NCBI GenBank assembly: GCA_945787885.1
Contig: CALZJF010000002.1
Span: forward strand, 1 to 33,263
Direction: 5' to 3'
Length of the DNA: 33,263 nucleotides
Source of the DNA: an uncultured Bacteroidales bacterium
GTDB taxonomy: Bacteria; Bacteroidota; Bacteroidia; Bacteroidales; Bacteroidaceae
In this document: one piece after another, positions 471 to 32,477 of the stretch
Numbering within the stretch: the stretch's first letter is position 1
How the letters are laid out: each line of letters opens with the position of its first letter
Made by a program: the position numbers and the translations under genes
The notes under the pieces: model-generated
What the model was told of the DNA's origin: nothing
What the model saw: the letters and a program-made list of their open reading frames with translations, nothing else
The model's database searches: none

Positions 471-654
471 AAGTAGGTGTTCAAAATTAGTTTTATGTTT
501 GGATGCTCTATTTGGATGCAGATTTTAGTCTTGAAATAAAGGAGCATAGCGGGCTATGTGACTGTTTTCAAGGCTGAAAGATGCGCCAAAGAGAGTGTTC
601 AAGCCTAAGTGGCATAAAGAAAGCTTAGTATAAACTAATTTTGAAGACCTACTT
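471..654 (+). mobile_element. MITE-like foldback element, copy A (184 bp)
   Basis: The terminal inverted repeats are AAGTAGGTGTTCAAAATTAG at 471-490 and its complement at 635-654, matching at 19 of 20 positions. The interior is itself an imperfect palindrome around a small central hairpin (CATAG 545-549, loop CGGG, CTATG 554-558). It has no coding capacity. Copies occur at 6194-6354 and 32281-32477. A non-autonomous element moved by a transposase elsewhere is the simplest reading. Confidence 0.8.
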
Positions 655-699
655 ATGACGGTTAGACTCTGTCGCCTTACTTCAATACGCCCTGCATGA

Positions 700-1011
700 A
701 CGCGAGTTCGATGTAAGCCCTATGCGATAAGCATGCTTTTGCCGATGATTTCGATATTCATGATGAAGGAATATGCGCTCAAATCAAATGCAAGGCGGCG
801 TTACCACCGTGATTCTACCCTGTCAAAAGCAGGAATCATGCTAATCATGATACTGCTTCATGATTCAGACCACCCTTGCCTGAAGCATTTCCATCAGGAA
901 AAGATGTGCGAACACATGTCTGCCATGCTGCAGGCTCTGCCACATTTCGTACTGAAAGAAAGCTACTCCGACTGCCTCTTCTCAATGGAGCGGAATATGC
1001 CACTGCCATGA
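700..1011 (+). pseudogene. IS982-family transposase N-terminal remnant, frameshifted
   Basis: The reading frame from 733 contains the segment LSKAGIMLIMILLHDSD followed by CLKHFHQEKMCEHM. This resembles the N-terminal part of Bacteroidetes IS982-type DDE transposases, where a similar L-S-x-x-E-I-M-x-I-x-I stretch precedes a C-x-K-H-x-Y-x-E-x-V-C-x-H-x motif. The expected upstream residues (FADDF..., about 740) are in a different frame, so an indel separates them. The catalytic region is missing and homology fades after about 960. It is a dead fragment between MITE copy A and the abiE genes. Confidence 0.6.
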
Positions 1012-1202
1012 CAAGGCAGTTTCACGATGTCAGTGAACTCCTTAGCGAACATTCCCTCAGACAAGCCGTCGGGAAACTGGCTGGAACAGAAACACAGCTG
1101 TTGGAGAAGGATAGCAAGAAGCAAATGTGTCGGTACATCGAAAGCGATGCTAACCAAAGAATACTCGAACAACTTCGGAACGACATACGTAAGATTATCT
1201 GA
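1008..1202 (+). CDS. Unrecognised 64-residue fragment
   Basis: An ATG at 1008 opens a 64-residue frame with an amphipathic, charged C-terminal half (LLEKDSKKQMCRYIESDA) ending in a Lys/Ile-rich tail. I do not recognise it and see no ribosome binding site or promoter of its own. It follows the IS982 remnant directly and could be the decayed tail of some other gene. The translation has plausible protein composition, but short length and setting make a functional gene doubtful. Confidence 0.2.
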   Translation: MTRQFHDVSELLSEHSLRQAVGKLAGTETQLLEKDSKKQMCRYIESDANQRILEQLRNDIRKII

Positions 1203-1305
1203 TACAAAACCAATTGGAGGTGCTAAACTGTCAAATATATGTTAATAAATCATGGCTAATGAATATATTTTCGAACAAACGGACTACAATTAGAAATAAA
1301 TGTAG

Positions 1306-1313
1306 TAACTTTG
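1306..1313 (+). promoter_or_regulatory. Putative abiE promoter -7 box
   Basis: TAACTTTG matches the Bacteroidetes -7 consensus TAnnTTTG and lies 23 nt before the abiEi ATG at 1337. No convincing TTTG -33 element is seen at the usual distance. Confidence 0.5.
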
Positions 1314-1336
1314 TACATGAGATAAAGTATAAAGAC

Positions 1337-1909
1337 ATGGAAGGCAAGAGATACAGCAACAGTTTCACCTCCTCAGAAATGGTAAAGGAAGAAGGACGGG
1401 CAGCATATTATAAACTGCTGGACAGCGTGCGTGATGGTGATACAGTACGCATCAAGCGCGGAGTATATGCCACAACCGAACAATTGGCTGACACGATGAT
1501 AGATGTGCAGGCCATTGTTCCGGGCGGGGTGCTGTGCCTTTTCTCCGCTTGGAACGTGCATGGGCTTACCACCTCGCTGCCACAAGCCTACCACATTGCC
1601 GTGAAGAGAGGTAGGAAAGTCACGCTCCCTGTCTTCCCCAAGGTTGAACTGCATCACATCATAGACACGATGTTTGACATAGGTGTCGAAGACCAGATAG
1701 TCAGCGGCTATCGCATACAGATATATAATAAGGAGCGGTGCGTATGTGATGCCATAAAACACCGCAACAAGGTTGGCATGGACGTTTGTGCTGAAGTGGT
1801 AAACAGTTATCTGGCACTACCCAGCAGAAACCTTTCCCTGCTTTTTGACTATGCCGACAGACTGAGAGTAAAAAGAATCCTTGAACAGTATATTGCGCTA
1901 AAGCTATGA
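1337..1909 (+). CDS. abiEi: AbiEi-family type IV antitoxin (transcriptional regulator)
   Basis: This 190-aa protein has the layout of the AbiEi/DUF6088 antitoxin group. An N-terminal winged-helix-like part contains GDTVRIKRGVYAT (a short beta-hairpin typical of the family), followed by the LCLFSAWNVHGLT region and a C-terminal domain with ERCVCDAIKHRNKVG. In characterised AbiE systems the antitoxin represses the operon and counteracts the toxin without binding it. ATG 1337 was chosen over an upstream in-frame ATG at 1214 because it lies just downstream of the TAACTTTG box. Its stop overlaps the next gene's start (ATGA), which implies translational coupling. GC content is lower than in the core genes downstream, consistent with transfer. 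Confidence 0.8.
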   Translation: MEGKRYSNSFTSSEMVKEEGRAAYYKLLDSVRDGDTVRIKRGVYATTEQLADTMIDVQAIVPGGVLCLFSAWNVHGLTTSLPQAYHIAVKRGRKVTLPVFPKVELHHIIDTMFDIGVEDQIVSGYRIQIYNKERCVCDAIKHRNKVGMDVCAEVVNSYLALPSRNLSLLFDYADRLRVKRILEQYIALKL

Positions 1910-2781
1910 GTGAAATCAAAAACTACGGAAAATCTATCAGGGCAAGACTGCTCAATGTAGCCAAGCAGGAGGAAGTGTTCTATCAGACCATCCTGACCAG
2001 ATACTTTCAGGAGCGTCTGCTGTATCGCATTTCCCAAACACATTATCGTGAGAACTTCTACCTGAAAGGCGGTGCGCTGATGTACGCCTACGAGAGGTTT
2101 GCCGCGCGCCCCACATTGGACATAGACTTTCTTGGCACTCACATCAGCAATGATGGTGAGCGCATAGTTGAGGCGTTCCGCGAGATATGTTCGGTTAATT
2201 ACAAGGAGGATGGTGTACAGTATGATTGCGACAAGATTGCCACCCAAAACATCACCGAGTTCAAGGATTATCATGGTGTCCGTCTGAGTATTCCTGTGGC
2301 AATGGATACCATTGCGCAAGTGCTCACGATGGATGTTGGTTTTGGCGATGTGGTTACACCATATCCTGTTGCATTGGACTATCCTCTGTTGTTGGAGGAT
2401 TTGCCCGAAGCAAGCATCCTTGCCTACTCCACAGAAACCGTAATTGCAGAGAAGATGCACGCCATCATAGATTTGGCCGACCAAAGCAGCCGTATGAAAG
2501 ACTATTACGACATCTACCACCTGCTTACATCATTCCAATACGACTCAGCCATTTTACACGATGCCATCAACCGCACTTTTGAGAATCGTCATACAGCCTA
2601 TAATGCCGACACAATGTTTTTCAGGGAAGACTTCCCCAACCATCCTCAGATGCAGGTTAGATGGACAGCTTTCCTGAAGAAAGCTACCATCAATAGTGCC
2701 CTGTCATTTCCTGAGGTGGTGCGTTGGCTTCAAGACACATTAAGACCATATTGGACAGCATACGGTCGTATGCTGCACTGA
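1906..2781 (+). CDS. abiEii: AbiEii-family nucleotidyltransferase toxin
   Basis: The 291-aa product has the motif set of AbiEii/MenT-type nucleotidyltransferase toxins: KGGALM at residues 54-59, the metal-binding LDIDF with D72 and D74, TVIAEKMHAI with E182 and K183, and KDYYD at 198-202. Family members transfer nucleotides onto RNA targets such as tRNA acceptor ends or bind GTP, arresting growth; they act in phage abortive infection and plasmid or island maintenance. All expected catalytic residues are visible, so the toxin looks intact. It overlaps abiEi by four bases. The RNA target cannot be told from sequence. Confidence 0.85.
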   Translation: MSEIKNYGKSIRARLLNVAKQEEVFYQTILTRYFQERLLYRISQTHYRENFYLKGGALMYAYERFAARPTLDIDFLGTHISNDGERIVEAFREICSVNYKEDGVQYDCDKIATQNITEFKDYHGVRLSIPVAMDTIAQVLTMDVGFGDVVTPYPVALDYPLLLEDLPEASILAYSTETVIAEKMHAIIDLADQSSRMKDYYDIYHLLTSFQYDSAILHDAINRTFENRHTAYNADTMFFREDFPNHPQMQVRWTAFLKKATINSALSFPEVVRWLQDTLRPYWTAYGRMLH

Positions 2782-2917
2782 CCGGACTTGGTTACTTAGA
2801 ATCTTTTTCGATACAGACTTAGTTATCAACTATCATCTCCAGCTCACTAATAAACAAGGGGACACCCGTAGAATTCCACCGCAAGCAACCAAAGATACAG
2901 AAAGAAGCGAAGAATAA

Positions 2918-3151
2918 ATGAACTTCTTTCGGCATGTCCAGGTGGTCTTGATAGCCAATCTGCTCATCACCGTACTCTCAAGAAGCATCAAAAGGAATTG
3001 CGCATTCTCCCAGGTTGTCACCATGGTGCGCCTTACGCTTATGTACTACATCGACTTTGTCGCATTTATGGAAAATCCTGACAAAACATGGAACAACATT
3101 CTGACCAAGGAGGAGCAAAAAGCACCACCAGAACCTTCGCTTTTCGATTAG
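2918..3151 (+). pseudogene. IS4-type transposase C-terminal fragment
   Basis: The 77 residues read like the C-terminal end of a Bacteroidetes IS4-family transposase: HVQVVLIANLLITVLSR, then CAFSQVV, LMYYIDFVAFMENPDKTW and a terminal PSLFD. In intact relatives this follows the last catalytic motif (Y-x-x-R-W-x-I-E), which is absent here. The fragment starts at an internal Met and has no upstream transposase body, so it cannot be active. Downstream, 3176-3208 forms a short hairpin (GTCCGAAG/CTTCGGAC), possibly a leftover of the element end. Confidence 0.6.
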
Positions 3152-3253
3152 GGGGGCTTACTTTTGGAAAAAAGAAGTCCGAAGCCTGATTTTACTGGAC
3201 TTCGGACAGGGTTATCTGGCACTTTTGAGTTTTACCGGACAGCAATAATAAAT

Positions 3254-3272
3254 AATTTTGCACACCTACTTA
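3254..3272 (-). repeat. Solo MITE terminal repeat on the far side of the abiE island
   Basis: TAATTTTGCACACCTACTT is the inverted counterpart of the left end of MITE copy A (471-489), matching at 18 of 19 positions. It is followed by a second end-like motif (ACCTACCTTA, 3275-3284), which matches the termini of copy C. No element body is attached. Confidence 0.6.
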
Positions 3273-3292
3273 GTACCTACCTTATATAATAC

Positions 3293-3352
3293 AAGTTTCG
3301 CAAGTTCAATCTCGTAATGCGTGTGCGTTACCGGATTGGACTTGCGAAACCT
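3293..3352. terminator. Long hairpin between island and bspA-like gene
   Basis: The arms 3293-3311 and 3334-3352 pair over 19 bp with G:T wobbles, and the loop pairs further (GTAATGC with GCGTTAC). On the plus strand a T6 run follows at 3361-3366. The hairpin lies 37 nt past the stop of the minus-strand LRR gene, so it may terminate that gene or the island transcript. Confidence 0.5.
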
Positions 3353-3388
3353 GTATCCTGTTTTTTAAGAGGCAGGCGTGACCGCGGC

Positions 3389-4342
3389 TTACCGTAGCAC
3401 TTTCTTGCCCTTCACGATATAGATGCCCTTGGGCTGCGCGCTGAAGTTTTTCATCGTTCCTGCGCGGCTACCGTTGAGATGATAGACGGGCACTGCCGTT
3501 TCTCCTTCAACGGTCACTGCCGTAATGCCGCTCTGCTCCTCTTCCACGATTTTGTAGGCATTCCAAGGGTCAATGCCATAGTTCGCTGATGCTCCAGTGG
3601 GCACATAAATCGTTTCGAGCGACTCACACCAATCGAAGATACCACCTCCTGTTGCAGGCGGCGTTTCGCGGTTCGCATGGACTTCTGTCAAGCCCGAGCA
3701 ACCACCGAAGCAACGATATCCCAAACTGGTGACGGAGTTGGGAAGTGTGATGCTCGTCAAGCCCGAGCAACCATAGAAGCACTTATATCCCAAACTGGTG
3801 ACGGAGTTCGGAAGCGTGATGCTCGTCAAGCCCGAGCAACCTTCGAAGCAAGATTCTCCCAAAGTGGTGACGGAGTTGGGAATCGCGATGCTCGTCAAGC
3901 CCGAGCAACCCAAGAAGCAATATCTTTCCAAACTGGTGACGGAGTTCGGAAGCGTGATGCTCGTCAAGCCCGAGCAACCCCAAAAGCAAGATCTTCCCAA
4001 ACTGGTGACGGAGTTGGGAAGCGTGATGCTCGCCAAGCCCGAGCAACCCTCGAAGCAAGCATATCCCAAACTGGTGACGGAGTTCGGAAGCGTGATGCTC
4101 GTCAAGCCCGAGCAATCTAAAAAGCAATATTCTCCCAAACTGGTGACGGAGTAAGCGGTTCCGTCCACTGAGACGGTCTCAGGAATTACAACTGCTCCTA
4201 CGTATTTGTGGTTACCAGTCGTCACGCTGGCAGTTTTGTTTTTCGTGTCAAGATAGTAGTAAATGCCATCCACTTCCACATGGTACGCCCAAGCGGAGAT
4301 GACTCCCAAGAGGAGGGAAAAGAGTAAGAATAATTTTTTCAT
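3389..4342 (-). CDS. BspA-like leucine-rich-repeat secreted protein
   Basis: The 317-aa protein starts with a clear signal peptide (MKKLFLLFSLLLGVISAWA). Residues about 60-225 are seven near-identical 23-residue repeats of the LRR_5/BspA type, each with a CF.GCSGL core and an ITLPNSVTSLG strand. The C-terminal tail KGIYIVKGKKVLR resembles a short type IX sorting tail. BspA proteins of oral Bacteroidetes bind fibronectin, fibrinogen or other bacteria; here the ligand is unknown. The DNA repeats are 69 bp (see the separate entry), so copy number could change by recombination. It is read alone, convergent with the island and with its own -7 box. Confidence 0.85.
   Translation of the reverse strand: MKKLFLLFSLLLGVISAWAYHVEVDGIYYYLDTKNKTASVTTGNHKYVGAVVIPETVSVDGTAYSVTSLGEYCFLDCSGLTSITLPNSVTSLGYACFEGCSGLASITLPNSVTSLGRSCFWGCSGLTSITLPNSVTSLERYCFLGCSGLTSIAIPNSVTTLGESCFEGCSGLTSITLPNSVTSLGYKCFYGCSGLTSITLPNSVTSLGYRCFGGCSGLTEVHANRETPPATGGGIFDWCESLETIYVPTGASANYGIDPWNAYKIVEEEQSGITAVTVEGETAVPVYHLNGSRAGTMKNFSAQPKGIYIVKGKKVLR
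3687..4169 (-). repeat. 69-bp tandem repeat array in the LRR gene
   Basis: The string GTCAAGCCCGAGCA (GCCAAG in one copy) recurs at 3687, 3756, 3825, 3894, 3963, 4032 and 4101, exactly 69 bp apart. Units differ mainly at the codons between GLG and CF. The repeat is a whole number of codons, so gain or loss keeps the frame. Confidence 0.9.
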
Positions 4343-4406
4343 AATATGTTATTGTTGAAAGGTTTGTCATGCATCAGTTCTGCAGCCCGCAGGTCGTTTC
4401 GTGGGA

Positions 4407-4414
4407 CAAATTTA
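4407..4414 (-). promoter_or_regulatory. Putative promoter -7 box of the LRR gene
   Basis: On the minus strand this reads TAAATTTG, a full match to TAnnTTTG, 64 nt upstream of the start codon at 4342. No good -33 TTTG is seen. Confidence 0.5.
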
Positions 4415-4632
4415 CGTGTTCTAACAGTCTTGAACCTTCTTTTGACAATAATTCGAAATTGTTCGAACTACCCCTTCCTATTTTGCAATGCAGTATTTAC
4501 ATAATTCGATATTGAAGTTATTGTCTGATAAAAAGCAAGTTTTCGTTGGTATCAATACTTAGTTATCCTGGTTGTCGTTTTGATTTTTTTGACGACAACA
4601 GGGACAACTTGGGACAACTTTTGGAGCACCAG

Positions 4633-4785
4633 GGAAAACCCGTGTCTGTCACCCTTCAGAAAAGCCAAGCCGATTTCTCATTCAAAAACAGCCCCTTGCG
4701 ATGGATGCGAAATGGCTCCAACAATCCATTTTGCATCCATCGCAAGGGGCTTGTCCCGGTTTTTCCGGTGCGTGACAGACAAAGA
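4633..4785 (-). terminator. Probable metK terminator with 26-bp stem
   Basis: Arms 4688-4713 and 4725-4750 (core CCCCTTGCGATGGATGC) pair over 26 bp almost perfectly. On the minus strand, downstream of metK, the stem is followed by GTTTTTG. An outer, weaker complementarity (GTGTCTGTCAC near 4641 with GTGACAGAC near 4782) widens the structure. The rest of 4415-4632 is AT-rich spacer with a smaller hairpin at 4568-4602 (GTTGTCGT/ACGACAAC) and no gene. Confidence 0.6.
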
Positions 4786-4862
4786 GTCTTGGCGGTGGCC
4801 TCCGAAATTTGCCGGAGGAGGCTAAAGACGGCGCACCACAAGCATCCGGCAGGAGGCAGGCA

Positions 4863-6158
4863 CTACAGTCCGAACGCCTCCTTGATGCGCTCAACATAGT
4901 CGAGCTTCTCCCACGTGAAGAGCTCCACGTCGTCCAGCGTCTTCGCCGGCTCGCCGTAGGTGGAAGAGAAGGTCTTTGAAACGGTGCGACACTGGCGGCC
5001 CATGTGGCCATAGCGTGCCGTCTCCTCGTAGATGGGACGACGCAGGTTCAGGCGTTCCTCAATGGCACGCGGACGGAGGTCGAAGAGTTCCTTCACCTTG
5101 GCAGCGATTTCGCCATCCGTCATCTTGACGTGGCTACGGCCGTAGGTCTCCACGCAGACGCTGACGGGCTCTGCCACACCGATGGCATAGGCAAGCTGCA
5201 CGAGCATCTCGTCGGCAACGCCGGCTGCCACCATGTTCTTGGCAATATGGCGGGCAGCGTAGGCAGCACTGCGGTCCACCTTCGAGGGGTCCTTGCCGGA
5301 GAAGGCTCCGCCGCCGTGGGCTCCCTTGCCGCCGTAGGTATCGACGATGATTTTCCGGCCCGTCAGTCCCGTATCGCCGTGGGGGCCTCCGATGACGAAC
5401 TTGCCCGTGGGGTTCACGTGGTATTTGATGATGCTGCGCTCGAAGAGGGCTTTCACCTCCGGGGTGTGCACGCGCTCCTTCAAGACACGGGGGATGAGGA
5501 TGGTGGTGACATCGCGGAAAATCTGGTCGAGCATCATCTCGTCGGCCTTCTCCTGACTGCCCGCCTGCTCGGCGGTGATAAACTCATCGTGCTGCGTGGA
5601 GACGACGATGGTGTCGATGCGCTGGGCATGGCCGGCATCGTCGTATTCTATCGTCACTTGGCTCTTGGAGTCCGGACGCAGATAGCGCATCACCTTGCCC
5701 TCACGGCGTATCTCGGAGAGGACGATGAGAATATCGTGGGCGAGAGAGAGAGGGAGGGGCATGAAGGTGTCGGTCTCATTGTTGGCATAGCCGAACATCA
5801 TGCCTTGGTCGCCCGCGCCCTGCGCCATAGGGTCGGCACGCTCCACGCCGCGGTTGATGTCGGGGCTCTGGGAATGGAGGGCGGAGAAGATGCCGCAACT
5901 CTCAGCATCGAATTTATATTCCGACTTCGTATAGCCGATGCGGGCGATGGTATTTCGCACCACTTTCTGCAAATCGACCGTGGCGGTCGTATTGAGTTCG
6001 CCAGCCAGCACCACCTGGCCCGTGGTCACGAGCGTCTCGCACGCCACCTTGGCATTGGGGTCGTAAGCAAGGATTTCATCAAGGATAGCGTCGGAAATCT
6101 GGTCCGCCACTTTGTCGGGGTGTCCTTCTGACACGGATTCGGATGTGAAGAGATACAT
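4863..6158 (-). CDS. metK: S-adenosylmethionine synthetase
   Basis: The 431-aa enzyme makes S-adenosylmethionine from methionine and ATP in the cytoplasm. Visible signatures are the N-terminal [13 protein letters not shown] (ATP/metal site), [12 protein letters not shown] in the middle and [19 protein letters not shown], the second family signature. Start ATG 6158 gives [16 protein letters not shown], the usual beginning; a TTG two codons upstream is less likely. Length is slightly over the bacterial norm (about 385-400), as often in Bacteroidetes. The upstream region to 6640 contains no gene but holds a MITE copy and a SAM-II-like aptamer, which would make metK subject to feedback by its own product. 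A strong terminator-like hairpin follows. Confidence 0.97.
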
Positions 6159-6193
6159 AAGCAAGTAATAAAAAAATATTTTATGGTAAATGT

Positions 6194-6354
6194 AGTAGGC
6201 AATTTATGATGGCTTGCGTGTTTGAACGCTCCCCTTGGCGCATCTTTTAGCCTTGAAAACAGTCACGGTTCACTTATAATATGGCCGCCGTGCTCCTTTA
6301 TTTCAAGACTAAAACCTGCATACAAATAGAGCTTTCTAACACAAACACCTACTT
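6194..6354 (-). mobile_element. MITE-like foldback element, copy B
   Basis: Read on the minus strand, the interior closely matches copy A (for example TTTTAGTCTTGAAATAAAGG and GTGACTGTTTTCAAGGCT). The end at 6336-6354 carries AAGTAGGTGTTTGTGTTAG on the minus strand; the other end (6194-6206) is degenerate and shortened. The central hairpin is kept but altered: CACGG 6264-6268 with CCGTG 6288-6292 and a larger loop. It lies 35 nt upstream of the metK start. Confidence 0.75.
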
Positions 6355-6529
6355 AGATTTGTTTTCAATGATAGGAGAAAACGTAAGCCACAAAGGAAAA
6401 CCAACTCAACTCTGCAACGCATCAGGCTATGCACTCCTGCCGTATGGGCACAAAAAAAACTGTCCACCCTCGCCCCGACGATGCGGGATGCAGGAGAACA
6501 GCAAACCAATCTTTCAGCCTTCAAAGGGG

Positions 6530-6632
6530 AAACGCCTTCCTTCGCCAACAGCGGCGAGAGAAGAAGCAGGAAGCGATTCCGGCGTTTTAGCATTTTTTTG
6601 CGAGGTTGCAAGCAGTCAAATCTGTCCTCTTT
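6530..6632 (-). promoter_or_regulatory. Candidate SAM-II riboswitch upstream of metK
   Basis: On the minus strand, 6632-6581 holds the conserved SAM-II segments in order: GATTTG (6622-6617), TTGCA (6611-6607) and GCTAAA (6591-6586), with GAGG (6629-6626) pairing to CCTC (6605-6602) as stem P1. Spacings (5 and 15 nt) are close to those of known SAM-II aptamers. The 3' end AAACGCC (6587-6581) is complementary to GGCGTTT at 6536-6530, a possible competing stem and expression platform. P1 has an extra ACA before GATTTG, which is unusual. The aptamer would begin within about ten nt of the predicted transcript start. The match is from memory of the family, not from a covariance search. Confidence 0.6.
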
Positions 6633-6645
6633 GTTTTTACACCAG

Positions 6646-6679
6646 CAAAAGTAGCGCATTTTTTCATGGCGACACACAA
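6646..6679 (-). promoter_or_regulatory. Putative metK promoter
   Basis: The minus strand has TACTTTTG at 6653-6646 (TAnnTTTG) and a TTG at 6679-6677, 23 nt upstream, slightly wider than the usual 19-21. Transcription would start near 6638, right at the 5' edge of the SAM-II-like aptamer, giving a leader of about 480 nt. Confidence 0.45.
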
Positions 6680-6699
6680 GGTATCCTGTTTTTTTTGCA

Positions 6700-6707
6700 T
6701 AACTTTG
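6700..6707 (+). promoter_or_regulatory. Putative tsaE promoter -7 box
   Basis: TAACTTTG ends five bases before the tsaE ATG at 6712. It is divergent from the predicted metK promoter. The spacing implies a leaderless or nearly leaderless transcript. Confidence 0.5.
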
Positions 6708-6711
6708 CGGC

Positions 6712-7131
6712 ATGAAAATCGAAATATCAACTCTGCATAACATTCATTCGGCGGCACAGGCTTTTCTGGAGGCCACCGACGTGAACCGCGTATTTGCCTT
6801 CTACGGCAAAATGGGCGCGGGAAAAACCACCTTCATCAAGGCTCTCTGCGAGGAGCTGGGCGTGGAGGATGCGGTGAACAGTCCGACGTTTGCCATCGTC
6901 AACGAATACTACTCTACCCGACTCGACGGCCCGATTTTCCACTTCGACTTCTATCGCATCAAGCGCATAGAGGAAGCGTTCGACATCGGCACGGACGACT
7001 ATTTCTACTCCGGAGCTCCCTGCTTCATAGAATGGCCCGAACTCATCGAGGACATTCTGCCGGAGGAGACGGTGAGAGTGAGCATCGAGGAGCAGCCCGA
7101 CGGCACGCGAACCATAGAATTTGAAGACTGA
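6712..7131 (+). CDS. tsaE: tRNA threonylcarbamoyladenosine biosynthesis ATPase TsaE
   Basis: The 139-aa P-loop protein supports the TsaBD complex that adds threonylcarbamoyl to A37 of ANN-decoding tRNAs. The Walker A motif is GKMGAGKTT at residues 32-40, followed by the family motifs SPTF (57-60), HFDFYR (77-82) and EWPE (107-110). Length is normal. The ATG at 6712 is the only reasonable start because the next in-frame Met lies inside the Walker A motif. No Shine-Dalgarno-like sequence precedes it and a -7 box lies immediately upstream. About 120 nt separate it from the sigma factor gene. Confidence 0.95.
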   Translation: MKIEISTLHNIHSAAQAFLEATDVNRVFAFYGKMGAGKTTFIKALCEELGVEDAVNSPTFAIVNEYYSTRLDGPIFHFDFYRIKRIEEAFDIGTDDYFYSGAPCFIEWPELIEDILPEETVRVSIEEQPDGTRTIEFED

Positions 7132-7250
7132 CAAAGGCGTTGCCCCAACCCCGCCGTACAGGCTTTTGCGCGGAAAACGCAGGCATTCTCAAAAAAACTG
7201 GGGAAAACCTGTAACTTTTTCAACCTTTTTCCCGTCATACCAACAGAAGC

Positions 7251-7808
7251 ATGACCCATCTTGACATCAAACGCGACCTGCTGCCACTGAAGGACCACCT
7301 CTTCAGGCTGGCACTGCGCATCGTCACTGACCGTCCTGAGGCAGAGGACATCGTGCAGGACGTGCTGGTGAAAATATGGGAGATGCGCGACACGCCGACA
7401 TTCCGGGAGATTCAGCATCTCGAAACGTATGCCCTGACCATGACGCGCAACATGGCACTCGACCGTCTGGAGCAGCAACGCCTCCGATACATTCCGCTCT
7501 ACGGACGGACGCAGGAGGGCGACGAGGACTACGAGGCGCAGAGCCTGCACGAAGACATTGCTGACAACGCCGCACTGCCCGATCAGCGCATGGAGCACGA
7601 CGAAAGGAGGCTCTGGATGCAACGCTTGCTCAGCGAGCTGCCAGAGAAGCAGCGCACCATCCTGCAACTGCGAGATGTGGAGGAGCGGACGTATCAGGAG
7701 ATTGGCGAAATCATGCAGATCGGAGAATCGGACGTCAAAGTGACGCTGCACCGGGCCCGACAGGCTTTGAAACGTATCATCACAGAAAGGAAATCTCATG
7801 GATTATAA
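7251..7808 (+). CDS. ECF-type RNA polymerase sigma factor
   Basis: The 185-aa protein has sigma region 2 at about residues 13-80 (EAEDIVQDVLVKIWEMR, then ALTMTRNMALDRL) and region 4 at 120-176 (LPEKQRTILQLRDVE, TYQEIGEIM, VKVTLHRARQALK). There is no sigma-1.1 or region 3, so it is an ECF-type factor of the Bacteroidetes group. Its last 11 bases overlap the next gene, a membrane protein likely to act as its anti-sigma partner. It is not adjacent to the SusC/SusD genes, so it is not an obvious FecI-type regulator of that operon. A weak TAACTTTT box is at 7212-7219. The regulon is unknown. Confidence 0.92.
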   Translation: MTHLDIKRDLLPLKDHLFRLALRIVTDRPEAEDIVQDVLVKIWEMRDTPTFREIQHLETYALTMTRNMALDRLEQQRLRYIPLYGRTQEGDEDYEAQSLHEDIADNAALPDQRMEHDERRLWMQRLLSELPEKQRTILQLRDVEERTYQEIGEIMQIGESDVKVTLHRARQALKRIITERKSHGL

Positions 7809-8313: not shown

Positions 8314-8441
8314 CTGCGCCCTGCGCTCCCCGCACAGCTTTCAATCGCCGCGCAGCAGGCTGACGCACAGCGGAAAATGCGGCACGGACACCTGATTTCA
8401 GAGAAAACAATCTTTGCTTACATACGATTAAAACGCAAGTT

Positions 8442-8476
8442 GGCCTGACGATGTGAATCGCCAGGCCGCTTTTTTT
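8442..8476 (+). terminator. Intrinsic terminator of the sigma/anti-sigma operon
   Basis: GGCCTGACGAT (8442-8452) pairs with ATCGCCAGGCC (8457-8467) with one mismatch and a GTGA loop, followed by GCTTTTTTT. It lies 129 nt past the anti-sigma stop. The space 8314-8441 holds nothing recognisable. Confidence 0.85.
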
Positions 8477-8520
8477 GCGCAATATCGCGCCTTTTCTGCA
8501 TTTTTATGGGCTGAAATCAG

Positions 8521-8528
8521 TATATTTG
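8521..8528 (+). promoter_or_regulatory. Putative glyS promoter -7 box
   Basis: TATATTTG matches TAnnTTTG, 88 nt before the start codon at 8616. The leader carries a small palindrome (GCTTGAAATTCAAGC, 8541-8555). No -33 TTTG at the normal distance. Confidence 0.5.
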
Positions 8529-8615
8529 CCAGCATATATGGCTTGAAATTCAAGCTAATAGGCCTTAAGATTTACATAGAATCAACTTACAAACTTTCGA
8601 ATATCATTATTCATT

Positions 8616-24153: not shown

Positions 24154-24180
24154 CTATCAGCTAACGTTCTATCTGACACT

Positions 24181-25254: not shown

Positions 25255-25302
25255 GGCGGAGGGATCATGCTTCTGCCTTTAGCCCCCAAAAAAGAGAAGA
25301 AG

Positions 25303-25345
25303 AGAGGGGGGTGGGCCAAGATGTTGGCCCACCCCCCTCTTTATA
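25303..25345. terminator. Bidirectional terminator
   Basis: A perfect 17-bp GC-rich stem (25303-25319 with 25324-25340, core GGGGGGTGGGCCAA) has a GATG loop. TTTATATT follows on the plus strand and a CT-rich stretch with T6 on the minus strand. It sits between the convergent DUF5009-like and protease genes. Confidence 0.85.
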
Positions 25346-25392
25346 TTACAGATATTACAGGGACAGAAAACCCTACTCTGACACAGAGCGCA

Positions 25393-28300
25393 TCAGCGGG
25401 CGATGACCTTACGGCCATTCGTCAGATAGATCTGACCGGGAGCGGGATGCAGCACGCGGCGTCCTGTCAGGTCATAGAAGGCTTCGGAAGCGGCTGCGGA
25501 GAGCGGAACATCGGCAATGCCATCGGGAATGGCAGCCTCCAGGACGGTCAGATCCGTGCGGGAGAGCTTGAACTCCTTGATGGTGAAGATGCTCGACCCC
25601 GTCATCGTGGCGACGAGGATGCCGAGATTGACGGGCTGCTTCTCGGAGACGATGAAGGTCATCGAAGCATCGGCAAGGGGCGCATAGCCCAGAGCCTCAG
25701 TGGCGAGGTCATCGCCGTCGGGGAGCGACTGGCCGGGGGCTGCCACGAGATACGAATCGCCGGCGGCACCATGCTGTCCGAACTCTACGCTGAGATTATA
25801 GATGCCCTCGGGGAGCTCCACGGTCTGGTAAGCCTTATGGTTTTCCAAGTCGCCGAAGCCGTCCCACTCCGTCGTCACGGTGAAGTCGTAGCTCTTCTTG
25901 GCATCGACGTGAGCACCCGTGAGAATCTGGCCAATCTTCATGGTGTTCTCCAGCGTCCAGTCAGCGAGCTCGTAGAAACGATTGGCAGTGCTGTTGTTGA
26001 TGGTCTTCGACGTGTGCTTGAACGAGCGCTTGTAGTTGGTGAGGTATTCCGCCGTGACATCCGTCTGCGCACTGCCGCCCTCGGCCAGCGAGAAGACGCC
26101 GAGCGAGAGGCCCCAGGCATCGCCGTCAGGGCCGAAGCCCGAGCGGACACCGGTGTTGCCGCGCGTGCTGCGGTCGGCCACGTTGCCACCGTTCTGGTTG
26201 AAATCATAGTAGAGCACGAGGCCCTCTGCCGCATTGACATCGGCGAGCGGGGCATTGACGGTGGCAGCGAGTTCGTCGGCGGTGAGCAGGCGGTCGTAGA
26301 TGCGGAGCTCATCGATTGAACCGTTCCAGTCGGCAGCGGAAGTGCCAATCTGGAAGGCGGGCATATCGGCAAGGCCGGAGGTGACGGAACCCGTGCCTAC
26401 CTTCTGAGCGTCCTTATAGAACGTGACAACCGTGCCATTGACGGTGACGGCATAGTGATGCCAGGAGCCTGCCTCGACGACGCCGGCGTTCGACTTGGCC
26501 ACCTTGCCCTTATTGCCGAGGCAGAGAGAGCCGTCGGACGCGGTCTTGATCTGGAAGGTGGCATCCGTGGAGCCCAGGCCACAGCAGTAGTCAGCGAGTT
26601 TGCCAGGATTCATCCACCAGCTGACGGTGTAGGCGCGCTGCTCTGCGGGGAGGGGGAGTTCCGAAGTCTGCACAGAAGCCCCCTGCTGGGAGAAGGAAAG
26701 GCCGTTGCGCGAGTCAGCATTGACGACGACGAGACCGCGGGTGCGCGTCAGACGCCCTGTGCCGGCACCGTTGGAGGCCACGAGCGTGAGGTCATAGACA
26801 CCGGGCTTCTCAGCGAGGAAGGCGGTGTTCTGGCCATTGATGACAACGCCGCCGGGCGTTCCGACGAGCTGCCACTGCCAGGAGGTGGGGGCATACTTCG
26901 AACGGTCAGTGAGGAGGACATAGTTGCCCTTCATGACGACGGGGAGGTCAATGTCGAAATCCACGACGGGCTTCACCTCCTGCACCTGCACTTCCTGCGT
27001 CGTGCTGGCGGTATGTCCGAGGGCATCGGTGACGGTGAGGGTGACGTTGTACGTGCCGAAAGCCTCATACGTGGCTCCTGCACTGGCACCACGCACCTCT
27101 TCGATGACGGCACCGGGCATGGACCATACATAACTGCAGCCCGGGACACACGCTGTGGGACGGAAACTGATGCGGTCGCCCGCGCTGACGGCGGTCTTCG
27201 AAGCCGTGAAGGTGGCATCGGGAGCGACGGCATCGCCGATGGTGAAGGTCCGGGTGTCGGTCAGCGTGTTGCCCGAATAGTCGGTGGCGGCGATGCTGAC
27301 GGTGTAAGTGCCCGGCTTCGTGAGCGAGAGCGTGGGCTCAAGCGCGGTGATCGTGTAAGTGTTGCCGGCATCGTCGGGAAGCGTCCATTCGAGATGGTTC
27401 ACATAGTCGTTGCGCGTGGCGGAGAGGGTGAAGGGTTGTCCGGCAGGAGCGGCTTTCACCTCATCGATGCTGATGGAACCGGGAGCGGTGGGGGTGACGA
27501 GATTCGGGGCAGCGGTGATGATGGTGCGCTTGTTCGTCGTGGAGACCTTGGCGTGGTGTCCGCCCACACAGTCAATCATGCGCCAGATGCCATCGGCATC
27601 CTGGAACGACGCTCCCTTGAAGTAGGCTACAAGGCCCTGCGGCAGGACATCGCCATAGAACTCATAGCGCGTCTGGGCATCATAGGCAGCCTTGATGTCT
27701 TCGGCAGAGCGGGCATAGTTCCAGATGCGGATTTCATCGTAGCGGGCCTGCTGGTGGGCATTGCTGGAAGCGGAGGAGGAGAAGACATAGTCGCCGAAAC
27801 CGCCGATGCCGCTATACTGCGTAGAGGAAATCTTGCTTTCCTCCTGGCCGTTGATGTAGAGCACGAGACGGTTCTTGTTGACCACGATGGTGATGAGCGC
27901 CCACTCGTTGGCAACGAGCGAGGACTGCGAGATGGCGCGGTTGGAAGTGTCCCATCCGCAATAGAACTTACCGGTATAGTCGCAGTGCTGATACCACGAG
28001 CCCCAGCCCGGACCGGCGGCATTGTTCCAGTCTGCGAAGGCAGAGGGGCGCATCCAGAACTCGATGGTGGCCTGCTCATAGGTGGTGTTGAAGACATCGG
28101 GGATGGTGAATCCCGCCTTCGTGAAGCTGTAGGCCTCATTCTTTTCAGGCAGGACGACGGGGGCGGCCACATGGCTGTGGGAACTCTCGCGCCCATCGGC
28201 ATAGAGGGCGGTGACGGAGTAGGAGGCCGCCGTGCTCTCCTCGGGGAGCGTGTAGGAGCGGGCATCGCTCCCCACCTCGGCGAGGAGTGTGCCTTCGGCA

Positions 28301-29904
28301 TAGACGCGGAAAGCCTGGAGGGCATGGCCCGAGGGGGTGGGCTCTGCCCAACGGAGCGTGCCATCGGCCATGGAGAGACTGTTGACACCATTGTAGCCGG
28401 CACCATAGACGATGGTGGAGATGATGGTGCGGTTGCCCGAACGGGTGATTTCGAAGGTGCCCGTGGGACCGAGGACGAAGGGTGTCTCTACGCCTTCGAG
28501 GTCCTGCTCATAGTCGATGATACCCGCCTCGTAGATATGTCCGGAACCTGCGTTGAGGTCCTTCTTGCGGGTGATGATGAAGAAATATTTCAGCGGCTGG
28601 TTGCAGTCGAAATTGGAGGAGAGGTCGGTGAGGTCATAGCCGAACTCCATCGGCTCGGTGTGGAGCTTGCCGTCGGCCCACTGTCCGAGCATCGGCACAG
28701 CCGGGGCGGGGTCGGTGTTGCCGTTCTTGCCGTCGCCGGCATACTTGAAGTGGTCCATCGAGATAAGGCCTTCGGGCGTTTCGGCATTGAGGTCGGTGCT
28801 GACGCCCGCCTGCAGGAGGAGTTCGGAACGATGGGAATAGTCCATCTTCAGGCGGATGGTGCGCAGCGGACGGTAGTCTTTACGCACATGGTAGAGCTCG
28901 CCCCACCAGAAGTCGCCGTTGAACTTGCCGTCGGCGGTGAAGGCACTGCCGGCATAGGCATAGGGGCAATAGATGAAGCCGTTGTTGCACCATCCTCCCC
29001 AGGAGTTGACGATGATCCAGGCTCCCTTCTCATTCTTTTCGCCATAGACGCCGTTGCCGTTGAGGTCGAACTCGACGCGGTCGTCATAGCCCACGAGGGT
29101 GAGGGCATGATCGACGCTCGTTCCCCACTTCTTGACGTAGTACATGTTCGTCACGCCGGCTTCATCGTTGGCAGCCGTAGAGGGGATTTTCCCCCAATCT
29201 CCGCCCGATGCCACACCGAGACCGATGAGTCCGCCGGCATGAAAGTCGGTGTCGCCGCAGTGGTTCCACAGCCAGTTTTTGGCAAACTCGCTTCCCGTCT
29301 CCGTGCCTAAGCTGGCGGAGTTGGTGGTGGGCTTGGTGCAACGATAGTTGAAGGCTTCGAACCATTTGTCGTAGCCCGTCATCCAGCCGAAGTTGTCGTA
29401 CGTCTCCTCCTGATAGCCGAAGAGATTGGAGAAGGTCTGGCCGCCATACGTCTTGGCGGAGGGCACGCCGACATTGGTGACGAACTCATCCTTACCGGAG
29501 TTGCCATTCGTCAGGAGCCAGACGAAATGGGTGGGGAAATAGTTTTCGGGCTTCGAGCCATCGCGGTCGCGATAGGCGTTCTGCTCATGAGAGAACATAT
29601 AGGCGATACGCGATGCCGAACCGCAGGAGCCCGCACTCTGATTGAAGACGGGCGGGAAATAGCGAGTGGCAGCATTATTGACGTGGTCGGGGCGTCCGGT
29701 AGCGGCTGCTCCGCGGCGTCCGGCTGCTACTGCCGCCTCATAGCGCGCAGCAAAGCGTGCGGCTGCGGGGGAGGGGTTGAAATTGCCAGAGCGGTAGTCG
29801 GGGAACTTTGTCCGATCTACTGGCACCAACCCTTCTGCCAACGGCTGGGCAAAGCCCACGGCAGCACACGACGAGAGAAGAAGTGTGAGAAATGGTCGTT
29901 TCAT
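25393..29904 (-). CDS. Large secreted papain-like (C1) cysteine protease with LamG and PKD-type modules
   Basis: The 1,503-aa protein has a signal peptide (MKRPFLTLLLSSCAAVGFA). The catalytic residues are visible: Gln89 and Cys94 in FNQSAGSCGSAS, His266 in VDHALTLVGYDD and Asn300 in NSWGG. Between His and Asn lies an acidic DLNGNG loop resembling a calcium site. Then come a beta-rich region, a LamG-like domain (about 588-765), Ig/PKD-like domains (about 800-890, 895-975, 982-1065), a second LamG-like domain (about 1070-1230), a DUF5013-like domain (about 1245-1450) and a tail (IYLTNGRKVIAR) like type IX sorting tails. It is monocistronic and probably works at or outside the cell surface on large protein or proteoglycan substrates. 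Confidence 0.88.
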   Translation of the reverse strand: MKRPFLTLLLSSCAAVGFAQPLAEGLVPVDRTKFPDYRSGNFNPSPAAARFAARYEAAVAAGRRGAAATGRPDHVNNAATRYFPPVFNQSAGSCGSASRIAYMFSHEQNAYRDRDGSKPENYFPTHFVWLLTNGNSGKDEFVTNVGVPSAKTYGGQTFSNLFGYQEETYDNFGWMTGYDKWFEAFNYRCTKPTTNSASLGTETGSEFAKNWLWNHCGDTDFHAGGLIGLGVASGGDWGKIPSTAANDEAGVTNMYYVKKWGTSVDHALTLVGYDDRVEFDLNGNGVYGEKNEKGAWIIVNSWGGWCNNGFIYCPYAYAGSAFTADGKFNGDFWWGELYHVRKDYRPLRTIRLKMDYSHRSELLLQAGVSTDLNAETPEGLISMDHFKYAGDGKNGNTDPAPAVPMLGQWADGKLHTEPMEFGYDLTDLSSNFDCNQPLKYFFIITRKKDLNAGSGHIYEAGIIDYEQDLEGVETPFVLGPTGTFEITRSGNRTIISTIVYGAGYNGVNSLSMADGTLRWAEPTPSGHALQAFRVYAEGTLLAEVGSDARSYTLPEESTAASYSVTALYADGRESSHSHVAAPVVLPEKNEAYSFTKAGFTIPDVFNTTYEQATIEFWMRPSAFADWNNAAGPGWGSWYQHCDYTGKFYCGWDTSNRAISQSSLVANEWALITIVVNKNRLVLYINGQEESKISSTQYSGIGGFGDYVFSSSASSNAHQQARYDEIRIWNYARSAEDIKAAYDAQTRYEFYGDVLPQGLVAYFKGASFQDADGIWRMIDCVGGHHAKVSTTNKRTIITAAPNLVTPTAPGSISIDEVKAAPAGQPFTLSATRNDYVNHLEWTLPDDAGNTYTITALEPTLSLTKPGTYTVSIAATDYSGNTLTDTRTFTIGDAVAPDATFTASKTAVSAGDRISFRPTACVPGCSYVWSMPGAVIEEVRGASAGATYEAFGTYNVTLTVTDALGHTASTTQEVQVQEVKPVVDFDIDLPVVMKGNYVLLTDRSKYAPTSWQWQLVGTPGGVVINGQNTAFLAEKPGVYDLTLVASNGAGTGRLTRTRGLVVVNADSRNGLSFSQQGASVQTSELPLPAEQRAYTVSWWMNPGKLADYCCGLGSTDATFQIKTASDGSLCLGNKGKVAKSNAGVVEAGSWHHYAVTVNGTVVTFYKDAQKVGTGSVTSGLADMPAFQIGTSAADWNGSIDELRIYDRLLTADELAATVNAPLADVNAAEGLVLYYDFNQNGGNVADRSTRGNTGVRSGFGPDGDAWGLSLGVFSLAEGGSAQTDVTAEYLTNYKRSFKHTSKTINNSTANRFYELADWTLENTMKIGQILTGAHVDAKKSYDFTVTTEWDGFGDLENHKAYQTVELPEGIYNLSVEFGQHGAAGDSYLVAAPGQSLPDGDDLATEALGYAPLADASMTFIVSEKQPVNLGILVATMTGSSIFTIKEFKLSRTDLTVLEAAIPDGIADVPLSAAASEAFYDLTGRRVLHPAPGQIYLTNGRKVIAR

Positions 29905-29906
29905 GG

Positions 29907-29948
29907 TATGTGTTTATAAGAAAATAGTATGTGCGTATAAGAAAAACA
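29907..29948. repeat. 21-bp tandem duplication upstream of the C1 protease gene
   Basis: Two adjacent 21-bp units (29907-29927 and 29928-29948) share TATGTG..TATAAGAAAA with four differences. They lie directly before the protease start codon, in the leader or promoter region. No exact TAnnTTTG box is found here. Confidence 0.6.
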
Positions 29949-29980
29949 AGTAAACCATCGGTGAGGAAGAGAGGAATGGC

Positions 29981-30028
29981 AAAAAGAAATCCCTCATCCC
30001 ATCCTCGCTCGGCATGGGATGAGGGATT
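29981..30028 (-). terminator. Terminator after the 698-aa secreted protein gene
   Basis: The arms 29988-30002 and 30014-30028 (AATCCCTCATCCCAT and its exact complement) form a 15-bp stem. On the minus strand it is followed by TCTTTTTG. It lies about 130 nt past the gene's stop. Confidence 0.8.
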
Positions 30029-30158
30029 ATTTCCCTACGAAAATAAGGAAAACTGAGCGTTTTCCACGAAGTTTCGGGTTGAAAAGTGATCAAAAAATCG
30101 AAAAACGACCGTTTTTTTTCTGCAAAAGCGGGGCATTTTCACACTTTCATCGGAAGAA

Positions 30159-32255
30159 TCAGCGCACAAAGACTTTCTGCCGCCGCACGCTGCCATCGGG
30201 GAAGAGGATGGTGCGGACCTGCAGTCCGGGCGTTGTGGGGGAGATGCTGCGCCCTTGGAGGTCGAAGGCACTGACGGAGAGGGGAGCTTCGGCAGGGGCG
30301 GCGATGCCTACCGTGGGATTCGAGATGACATAACGGTCAGACAGAAGGGTCTGGCCTTCGAGGCGATAGACCATTTCGACGGCGAGCTCGGAATAACTGA
30401 GCGGCGAGAAGGAGAAAATCTTGGTATAAGTGCCGCCATAGTCGAAGAAGTTCCACGGGTCGGTATAGGTGACGCCAATCTCGTTGGTAGCTTCCGGCAG
30501 ATAGGGGTAGTCTGAAGTGTTGAAGCGGAAGAGTTTTCCGTCGAGGTAGATGCGGAAATAGAGGTCGTCGAGACTCATGAGATAGCCCTTGACATTGAGC
30601 GGATCATACTGGAGCTGGATGTAGGGCGTCTCGGTGCGCGTCTCGTGGATGACTTCCACAGGCGGATTGGGACGTTCGGGCTGGAGGACGTAGGGCTTCA
30701 GCTCCGTGCCGAAATAGACGTAGGAGCCGTTGTAGCCATCATTGATTTGCGTCTGATAGAGTTGGTCAGTATGATAGGAGCCGTCTGCCGCACGCTCCAT
30801 GATGAACTCGGAGGTTTCCTTGAAACCCATGACATCATCGAGCTCCACGCCAGTGAATGTGATGGGATAATCGCCCATCATGCCCATGTACTGCCCGGAG
30901 GGGATGACGATGTCGTTGCCCTCCTTATAGCCCTTGAGCCATGTCATCTTGGCATCCTCGCAGAATCCGCAGACATAGACTTCCTCGCCCTTTTCAGCGA
31001 TTTCGACAAGGCGGAAGCTGGGGAACTGGGCATTGAGGATGGTGGAATATTGCATCTGAGAGCGAGCGGCATCGTCAGGGGGATAGCAATAGACGCGGTC
31101 GAAGGGGTCGATGCGCTGTTGTTCTGCCATATCGAGCGTGCCCGCACCATCGGCACTTTCTACGGTAATCAGATTGGCATCGATGCGAATGTGTGCCTCA
31201 TCGTCAATGGTTCCTGTCAGGCTGTCGGTCGGGATATAGGTCATATTGCCATATTCATCGTAGTCATAGCTCTGGGCGGGGGTGAAATATATGTCGTATT
31301 GCTGCCCACCCTGATAGATGCCTACATACTGCCCCTTGGGGAATGCGATGCGCTGCCCCGTGCGCTTTCCCCACACCCATGCCTTGGGCATGGAGGGGCA
31401 GAGGCCGCGGACGAAGACGCTATCGCCTTCGCCATACGCCAGCTGTGTGCGAATCTCATATTTATAGGTGTATTTCGTGGCGGTGGTATAGACCACGTCG
31501 CGATAGTCGGCTTGGGCAGGCGGATTGACGACGGTGGGCTGGCCGGGTTTGTAGGTGTCGGGGGTGCGACCGACGAAGAAACGGTCGAAGGCGACGAGAT
31601 TGACGTTCTCTTCCTGCGTACAATGCAGGATTTCAAACTGATAGGGGCCGCCGAGAGGTGGGGTGAAGGTGGTCTCGATGAACTTCCAGTTCTTGATTTT
31701 CTCTGCCCGGCTGCCCGAATAGTCGAAGAGGAGCGTCCGGGTGTCAGTGGCGGGGTCGATGGCAAAGACTTGAAATTCCTCCTTCTGCGCACCATAGCCC
31801 GGGGCAAAGACCCACAGACTGACGTAATGCTCTACGCCGCCCTCCAAGGGGACAACGGGGGAGACGGCACTGGCATGGCGCGGACTCAGGTCGTAGCCCG
31901 AAGTCATATAGCGGTCGCCGTCGATGGCACGGACGTTCTGTATCTGGGCACCCGTGCGCATGAGCTCGGCGGCATCTTGTATGGTCCATGCGTTGGAAGT
32001 CTCAAACGATTCGACATAGATGGCCCCTGCCGTTTCTGCACGCTGGGGTGCATCGTGGCGAATGGTGTTGGCAAGGAGGGGGGTCTGCGGTGAGAGATGC
32101 AGCCGATGCTGGGGAATGGTGTGCGGCTCCGACTGTGTCCGCACGTTTTTCTGCTGTGGAACTGACGGCGGCACTTGTTGCAACGGCAATGTCTGCTGTG
32201 CGGCAGCGGCGATGATGCTGAATAGCAGACAGACGAGAGCGGAAAATCTGTTCAT
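30159..32255 (-). CDS. Secreted protein with jelly-roll-like N-terminal domain and sorting-type tail
   Basis: The 698-aa protein has a signal peptide (MNRFSALVCLLFSIIAAAA) and a Gln/Pro-rich linker (about 20-70). Residues about 80-230 (YVESFETSNAWTIQD, HYVSLWVFAPGYG, FDRFFVG) look like the jelly-roll cleaved-adhesin/MAM-like domain found in Bacteroidetes extracellular proteins. The rest, to about 660, is beta-rich with repeated WLKG/GQYMGMM and WGKR/GQYVGIY segments, pointing to an internal duplication (about 290-330 and 430-470). The tail ends SVRRQKVFVR. I see no catalytic motif; a structural or adhesin role is possible. It shares orientation with the C1 protease gene but ends at its own terminator. 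Confidence 0.7.
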   Translation of the reverse strand: MNRFSALVCLLFSIIAAAAQQTLPLQQVPPSVPQQKNVRTQSEPHTIPQHRLHLSPQTPLLANTIRHDAPQRAETAGAIYVESFETSNAWTIQDAAELMRTGAQIQNVRAIDGDRYMTSGYDLSPRHASAVSPVVPLEGGVEHYVSLWVFAPGYGAQKEEFQVFAIDPATDTRTLLFDYSGSRAEKIKNWKFIETTFTPPLGGPYQFEILHCTQEENVNLVAFDRFFVGRTPDTYKPGQPTVVNPPAQADYRDVVYTTATKYTYKYEIRTQLAYGEGDSVFVRGLCPSMPKAWVWGKRTGQRIAFPKGQYVGIYQGGQQYDIYFTPAQSYDYDEYGNMTYIPTDSLTGTIDDEAHIRIDANLITVESADGAGTLDMAEQQRIDPFDRVYCYPPDDAARSQMQYSTILNAQFPSFRLVEIAEKGEEVYVCGFCEDAKMTWLKGYKEGNDIVIPSGQYMGMMGDYPITFTGVELDDVMGFKETSEFIMERAADGSYHTDQLYQTQINDGYNGSYVYFGTELKPYVLQPERPNPPVEVIHETRTETPYIQLQYDPLNVKGYLMSLDDLYFRIYLDGKLFRFNTSDYPYLPEATNEIGVTYTDPWNFFDYGGTYTKIFSFSPLSYSELAVEMVYRLEGQTLLSDRYVISNPTVGIAAPAEAPLSVSAFDLQGRSISPTTPGLQVRTILFPDGSVRRQKVFVR

Positions 32256-32280
32256 GACGTAAGGGTTTTATATGATTTTG

Positions 32281-32477
32281 TTAAGGTAGGTTCTATAAAT
32301 TAGCTTGCGATGTATTTGCGACTATCGTGCCGTAGTTTTTTGTTTTTCACGAGGGAGCGTAGCGGGCTACGTGACTGAATGAAAGATAAAAAGATACGGT
32401 GCGAGAGGCGTGAAGATATCCAAGTAAAACAGAAACACTGCCTTACATTGAAAACTAATTTATAGAACCTACCTTAA
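32281..32477. mobile_element. MITE-like foldback element, copy C (197 bp)
   Basis: The ends 32281-32303 and 32455-32477 are perfect 23-bp inverted repeats (outer TTAAGGTAGGTTC). The central hairpin CGTAG (32358-32362), loop CGGG, CTACG (32367-32371) matches that of copy A in position and loop, but the flanking interior sequence is diverged. It begins 26 nt upstream of the 698-aa gene's start codon. Confidence 0.85.

Follow-up and report, generated by a model that had tools for sequence, protein, structure and literature searches.

Short inverted-repeat elements of Bacteroidales share a covarying central hairpin whose fold is kept on one strand

The DNA analysed here, referred to as the window, is a stretch of 33,263 bp (bases 1-33263 of contig CALZJF010000002.1, C2) from the 2.70-Mb draft genome of an uncultured gut bacterium of the order Bacteroidales (96 contigs, 91% complete), the genus of which was taken as GTDB Prevotellamassilia. 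It contains three copies, A, B and C, of a short foldback element (Table 1). An initial annotation had described these as one family resembling miniature inverted-repeat transposable elements (MITEs), with a covarying central hairpin. Direct reading of the sequence and comparison with other copies confirmed that all three copies are present. Copies A and C had been located correctly, but the outermost bases that were included in their ends belong to the target duplications and not to the elements. The complementary arms CATAG/CTATG, CGTAG/CTACG and CACGG/CCGTG were also read correctly, with a longer loop in B. As proposed, all copies fold as long hairpins, and none of 200 shuffles was equally stable for any of them (z-scores of -10.9 for A, -10.9 for C and -4.4 for B, the stretches for B and C being a few bases wider). 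A covariance model of 61 rows, A included, matched exactly A, B and C within the window. Copy A has full-length counterparts of 95-96% identity at four other sites in the genome, and copy C has 39 further copies of 96-98% identity among the best 40 of 286 candidates scored. Copy B has a TA flank on one side only. A and B belong to the same family, whereas A and C represent two related families and not the single one first described. Copy B is located in a leader, with a SAM-II (S-adenosylmethionine) riboswitch at 6577-6635 on one side and a metK-like gene on the other; domain searches identified S-AdoMet synthetase domains in the gene product. The riboswitch presumably controls the metK-like gene, and the insertion of copy B has lengthened the leader.

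Table 1. Positions of the element copies and their parts in the window.
Feature	Position	Strand	Basis or remark
TA target duplication left of A	470..471	.	aligned copies
Copy A, intact 182-bp AG-ended (A-type) element	472..653	+	ends set by aligned copies
Covariance-model match at A	517-588		60.8 bits; the stretch is itself one of the 61 rows of the model
Core hairpin of A, GGAGC-ATAG-CGGG-CTAT-GTGACTG	541..564	+	core-pattern search
TA target duplication right of A	654..655	.	aligned copies
Solitary A-type end fragment	3250..3274	.	92% complementary to 468-492
Copy B, decayed A-type copy	6194..6353	-	arms 87% and 91% complementary to A
Covariance-model match at B	6236-6320		24.7 bits
Core hairpin of B, stem ACGG/CCGT, longer loop	6260..6296	-	sequence
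TTAA target duplication left of C	32281..32284	.	aligned copies
Copy C, intact 189-bp GG-ended (C-type) element	32285..32473	+	ends set by aligned copies
Covariance-model match at C	32330-32401		71.4 bits
Core hairpin of C, GGAGC-GTAG-CGGG-CTAC-GTGACTG	32354..32377	+	core-pattern search
TTAA target duplication right of C	32474..32477	.	aligned copies

The core hairpin had 203 matches in the source genome (104 + 99, at most 3 mismatches), as compared to one match for a reversed-pattern control, in agreement with the proposal of an abundant genomic family. This count is a better census than the whole-element searches, which scored the best 40 of 113 candidates for A and of 286 for C. In the source genome, A-type copies begin with AGTAGGT, are flanked by TA and are mostly 182 or 192 bp long. 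C-type copies begin with GGTAGGTTCTATAAATTAG or a variant of it and are mostly 189 bp long; their end sequence, GGTAGGTTC.., is paired with 4-bp target duplications. The 97 elements that were delimited range from 175 to 258 bp, too small for a transposase, as in MITEs, and carry terminal inverted repeats. TA was found on both sides in 26 of 27 AG-ended copies, for which a flank shuffle is uninformative since nearly every flank is TA. Among the 70 GG-ended copies, 51 are flanked by a 4-bp A/T-rich duplication, most commonly TTAA, TAAA or TATA, as compared to an average of 7.8 and at most 16 in 1000 shuffles; the count becomes 50 of 68 when two elements that were read in both directions are counted once. 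At one locus (L005), an A-type copy is nested within a C-type copy and the target TA is doubled. When the flanks of the 97 elements were joined, matches spanning the junction were found for 3 in other elements and for 6 in other collected loci, two self-matches being excluded. The foldback, MITE-like nature of the elements is thus supported by inverted ends, target duplications, a nested insertion and about 200 core matches.

The core was identified in 15 of the 58 genomes of the genus, with counts that range from 0 to 184 per genome. The end pattern was also identified in 15 of 58, and 21 genomes carry one or the other, including one (G041) on the basis of a single unverified end. The top count in the end-pattern scan was 391 matches in a 2.2-Mb genome (G054). 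An exact core scan of named genomes returned at least 105 stretches, and the titles among the matches listed include Prevotella, Muribaculaceae, Bacteroides, Porphyromonadaceae and Paludibacteraceae. In an even draw of the order, with stricter filters and the best 25 candidates scored per genome, the covariance model (E 0.001) matched 7 of 197 genomes, the source genome included. The distribution of the core across Bacteroidales is wide but patchy.

The central hairpin has a conserved tip, C-R-TAGC-NN-GCTA-Y-G, which in many families is placed inside GGAGC..GTGAC with tandem G.A mismatches. Since some sets had been selected by the core, core conservation was judged on sets selected by their ends and on the flanks of the core. 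Among 27 elements found by ends alone, 25 contained the tip at 0-4 mismatches (0 in 13, 1 in 3, 2 in 2, 3 in 1 and 4 in 6). Five of the six tips with four mismatches have the compensated stem GGTGC/GCACC and the sixth is close to it; in G001 and G033, the change from GTAGC/GCTAC to GGTGC/GCACC altered both sides of two pairs. The remaining two elements, two G004 loci of one 248-249-bp form, have the tip off-centre beside an insert. CATAGC/GCTATG was retained, or nearly so, in end-found copies of G016, G030, G053 and G054, and the tip was present at 0-1 mismatch in all seven end-found elements of G015, G038 and G039. Six short end pairs of 45-105 bp lacked the tip (L212, L213, L222, L231, L232 and L234). 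One of them (L231) is part of a full element that bears the tip, and the others are centre-less or broken, apart from L232, which looks like a chance pair. Centre-less forms of 35-79 bp, with little beyond the two ends, were observed at L194, L199, L203, L153 and L213.

Pairing extends over the full helix. In 54 copies chosen for their differing flanks, 67.3% of the pairs were standard, as compared to 32.8-40.3% when the register was slid by 1-3 positions, and the cells changed on both sides numbered 359 in the true register and 108-176 in the slid ones. The covariation score was reached by none of 500 shuffles. The covariation proposed for the hairpin is therefore strong, and it holds at 61 rows with end-found copies added. 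The pair just outside GGAGC..GTGAC was A-U in 31, G-C in 18 and G-U in 2 of the 54 copies; the search pattern allowed only C or T on its 3' side and placed no limit on its 5' side. The core mismatches in these copies are set by the pattern and are no proof by themselves; 7 or 8 of the 61 rows have standard pairs where G.A mismatches are usual. Taken together, these results show that a long but imperfect hairpin makes up the centre of the elements and that compensatory changes have preserved it across the order.

No Rfam family was matched at gathering score in 14 loci or at the three window copies; four microRNA-like hits at copy C were far below the cut-off and were taken as chance. Perhaps by chance, AAGGAG or AGGGAG, resembling a Shine-Dalgarno sequence, is frequent on the 5' side of the core, and a GTG follows 13 bases downstream of GGAG. 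At five loci (L288, L299, L316, L320 and L366), two inverted core hairpins, about 150-170 bp apart, are enclosed within one pair of inverted ends; four of these are Muribaculaceae by title and L366 is untitled.

Paired changes could also arise without selection. In an ordinary MITE with a functionless centre, template switching would copy one arm onto the other; palindrome-driven mutation of this kind is known, and the two adjacent paired changes from GTAGC/GCTAC to GGTGC/GCACC could represent a single event. The centre-less forms at several sites and the lack of a steady core constraint within genomes are also consistent with this explanation. However, the G.A mismatches adjoining the core (columns 22/49 and 23/48) have remained uncorrected in most of the 54 rows, although their 5' side is not fixed by the pattern, and template switching should give perfect pairs on both strands, which does not predict the strand asymmetry described below. 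We therefore consider this explanation unlikely.

In a helix that acts as double-stranded DNA, G.T and A.C mismatches should be equally acceptable, since each is the complement of the other. To count them, the arms were paired by an alignment that gives G.T no bonus, and the core was excluded. From 22 elements of less than 85% identity, one that was the reverse reading of another and one without a recognised centre were removed. In the 20 that were counted, G.T:A.C was 70:32 (15 elements with more G.T, 5 with fewer; Wilcoxon p 0.019). The ratio was 135:80 in core windows from named genomes (25 versus 7, the rest tied; p 0.006), of which 38 of 43 were used as 5 ran off the locus; some are from Prevotellamassilia timonensis, so that the two sets are not fully independent. 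A count by zone in 21 elements gave 39:9 in the inner zone, 31:18 in the middle zone and 4:7 in the terminal 20 nt. The core zone itself, at 23:1, mostly reflects one G.T pair fixed by the pattern and is not used in the argument.

Folding calculations agreed with the counts. With RNA parameters, the core strand gave the more stable fold in 21 of 22 full elements; the one that deviated was another element read in reverse. With DNA parameters, the same held for 20 of 21. When the core was replaced by a strand-symmetric dummy, the core strand still folded better in 44 of 54 and 50 of 54 comparisons. Relative to shuffles of the 54 windows, both mismatches were depleted, A.C (49 versus 99) more than G.T (88 versus 131). 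Young copies were examined in three families (28, 15 and 5 copies, one misaligned C copy having been dropped); their recent substitutions did not favour the formation of G.T (29 versus 34), and mutation bias is therefore not a likely cause of the asymmetry. These data show that the fold is kept on one strand, with G.T wobbles tolerated and A.C avoided. The preference for G.T in the centre, but not in the terminal repeats, suggests that the ends act as double-stranded transposase sites and the centre as a single-strand structure. The initial annotation had left open whether the structure is selected in DNA or RNA; the asymmetry speaks for the action of one strand, as RNA or single-stranded DNA, and not for a simple double-strand cruciform.

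These observations suggest that the element works via a single-stranded form, RNA or DNA, as well as via its ends. Our preferred interpretation, to which we assign a probability of about 0.6, is that the elements are non-autonomous MITE-like transposons with ends recognised by a transposase in trans and a centre that, as a single strand, aids their spreading. A DDE-type transposase would bind the ends as double-stranded DNA, and the core strand would act either as single-stranded DNA in replication or transposition or as an RNA, made by transcription that starts in the element or passes through it. Source copies that lose the fold would stop spreading, because copies within a genome change without bias while the lineages that are still spreading keep the bias. 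That the fold helps the element to spread is the simplest account. A more specific version, in which spreading of the Bacteroidales-wide superfamily needs the strand-specific hairpin as an RNA or single-stranded DNA handle for a host or trans factor encoded by none of the elements, is tentative and rather doubtful. If true, a single element would unite transposase ends that act as double strands and a recognition module that acts as a single strand.

Several observations weigh against the preferred interpretation. Three sites in G012 carry 79-bp forms that lack the centre and have closely similar junctions, one of them with a 4-bp duplication, suggesting that the ends alone can move; in this genome, target duplications were seen at 1 of 5 short loci and 4 of 8 full-length loci. 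The core was more variable than the ends in the 192-bp A-type copies (0.047 versus 0.012 per site) and in G057 (0.025 versus 0.010); in C copies the core was the less variable part (0.005 versus 0.014). The elements are related, so that the tests are not independent. The orientation of the core relative to neighbouring genes displays no clear bias (18 of 32 co-directional sites in the same direction as the genes, 14 opposite), and a transcript is not proven. Finally, no transposase with matching ends was found in the searches made.

The autonomous transposase with the same ends that the initial annotation had suggested looking for did not emerge from any of these searches. End-pattern searches in G004, G057 and four more genomes, and of their unpaired ends, revealed no autonomous element. 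DDE_Tnp_1 had no match in the source genome, and none of the matches in G004 (5), G057 (17) and G012 (7) had matching flanking ends. Among eight element-bearing genomes, DDE_Tnp_1_2 was present in one and the IS630-type DDE_3 in none. In Prevotella ihumii, two repeated stretches longer than the element (L309 and L272 were examined) showed no transposase between matching ends; L272 adjoins an IS3-type orfA-like open reading frame (ORF), as judged by eye. No match was obtained in plasmids with the C element or in phages with the A element. Other candidates were rejected. Among the first 163 sequences scanned, a single pair of insertion sequence (IS) length was found, in G004; it was taken as chance, since it lacked a duplication and its left end is located inside a tyrosine-recombinase-like ORF adjoining HsdS-like ORFs (identified by eye). 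At 980-3041 of L157 (G004), a tyrosine-recombinase-like ORF and two HsdS-like ORFs stand side by side, as judged by eye, an arrangement known from phase-variable restriction loci. Six loose pairs (at most 3 mismatches) from a search of sixteen end motifs over the collected loci were set aside, as their ends matched poorly, and a 730-bp end pair in G057 consisted of two centre-less remnants without a transposase. We use the label MITE-like because no partner with shared ends was found, although in a 91% complete draft its absence is not proven. Draft assemblies lose multi-copy insertion sequences, and the partner may be missing from them; G004 is a single contig and G057 consists of 20 contigs, and neither yielded a partner in the searches made.

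A different type of partner would be a Y1/HUH transposase. The core, with GGAG before the hairpin and sometimes in inverted pairs, is reminiscent of the REP/REPIN sequences mobilized by RAYT, which are high-copy hairpins preceded by a tetranucleotide and occasionally arranged as inverted pairs, and could be a one-strand substrate of such an enzyme. Y1_Tnp matches were obtained in 12 of 15 genomes. At one of 15 Y1 loci (L132 in G050), the contig end truncates a C-type copy that starts about 150 bp away from the Y1 match. In the source genome, an A-type copy interrupts a decayed Y1-type transposase gene (L029, about 1260-1710, G000:C21), with a short A-type end at the start of the gene. The other 14 Y1 loci, however, contained neither the core nor an end motif in the flanks examined, and none of the 15 had the core in its flanks. 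The present elements also have full inverted ends and target duplications, whereas REP/RAYT elements, to our knowledge, have neither target duplications nor long inverted ends. The link to RAYT is weakened by these results, and we regard a Y1/HUH partner as quite improbable. Other short palindromic repeats flank intact Y1 genes at L129, L130 and L141 (such as CTGGCTGGAAGCCAGTA in L129 and L130), and look like the true REPs of those genes.

The genomic positions of the copies bear on a host-serving role, in which the hairpin, once transcribed, would influence the genes beside it by serving as a processing site, a terminator-like barrier or a stabiliser of messenger RNA. Positions were obtained for 43 of 60 copies in the source genome (16 had too little flank and one had no flanking ORF). 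With crude ORF calling, none of the 43 was inside an ORF; the neighbouring genes were co-directional for 32, divergent for 6 and convergent for 5. The predominance of co-directional sites and the location of copy B in the metK leader are consistent with such a role, for which there is precedent in known MITEs that act on neighbouring genes as transcribed hairpins (PMC10969869, PMC2229807). The near-equal core orientation given above argues against it, as do the wide variation in core counts across the genus and a constraint that is hardly visible in young copies. Thus, we consider it quite unlikely that the hairpin serves the host. Elsewhere in the window, strong inverted repeats at 3289-3356 and 4690-4751 (arms 84% and 96% complementary) on either side of a leucine-rich repeat (LRR) gene are unrelated to the elements, and an AbiEii-type nucleotidyltransferase toxin domain of a type IV toxin-antitoxin system lies at 1906-2781, about 1.3 kb from copy A.

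The elements were compared with known small repeats. MITEs derived from IS5/IS427 have TA-centred duplications of 2-4 bp, similar to the duplications of 2 and 4 bp, and by eye 3 bp in some copies, observed here, but a matching DDE transposase was not found in the genomes searched. Porphyromonas gingivalis belongs to the same order as the source bacterium, and its BrickBuilt element resembles ours in being an intergenic MITE. BrickBuilt is described as strictly intergenic (PMC10969869) and as containing a minisatellite (PMC4596501), the latter being a difference; this comparison is by description, not by sequence. The ERIC/IRU and Correia/NEMIS MITEs of other bacteria are smaller than 200 bp and have inverted ends, terminal TA and transcripts predicted to form long stem-loops (PMC2229807). 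The present superfamily shares their small size, inverted ends, TA termini and long stem-loops, and is set apart, by description only, by its two duplication lengths and its one-strand centre. The pneumococcal RUP and BOX repeats are likewise portrayed as small stem-loop elements with inverted ends, target duplications and mutual insertion (PMC3049150), which resembles the nesting seen here. A partner, IS630-Spn1, has been proposed for RUP (PMC2229807), whereas none was found for the present elements. Inverted ends, TA targets and transcripts that form hairpins are well-documented features of MITEs (PMC2229807, PMC10969869, PMC3049150). No published account of the present family was found in the open-licence literature, which is no proof of its absence from print. 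Its distinctive feature is the combination of a one-strand signature and a covarying centre that is common to elements with diverged ends.

Bacterial MITEs are usually seen as passive deletion products that are defined by their ends. In the present superfamily, paired changes have preserved the centre of elements that come from several Bacteroidales families and differ greatly in their ends, and this centre shows the imprint of selection on one strand. This makes it a testable proposition that some MITEs contain a functional structural module. With 203 core matches in 2.7 Mb of the source genome and 391 end matches in a 2.2-Mb relative, the superfamily is a sizeable force in these bacteria.

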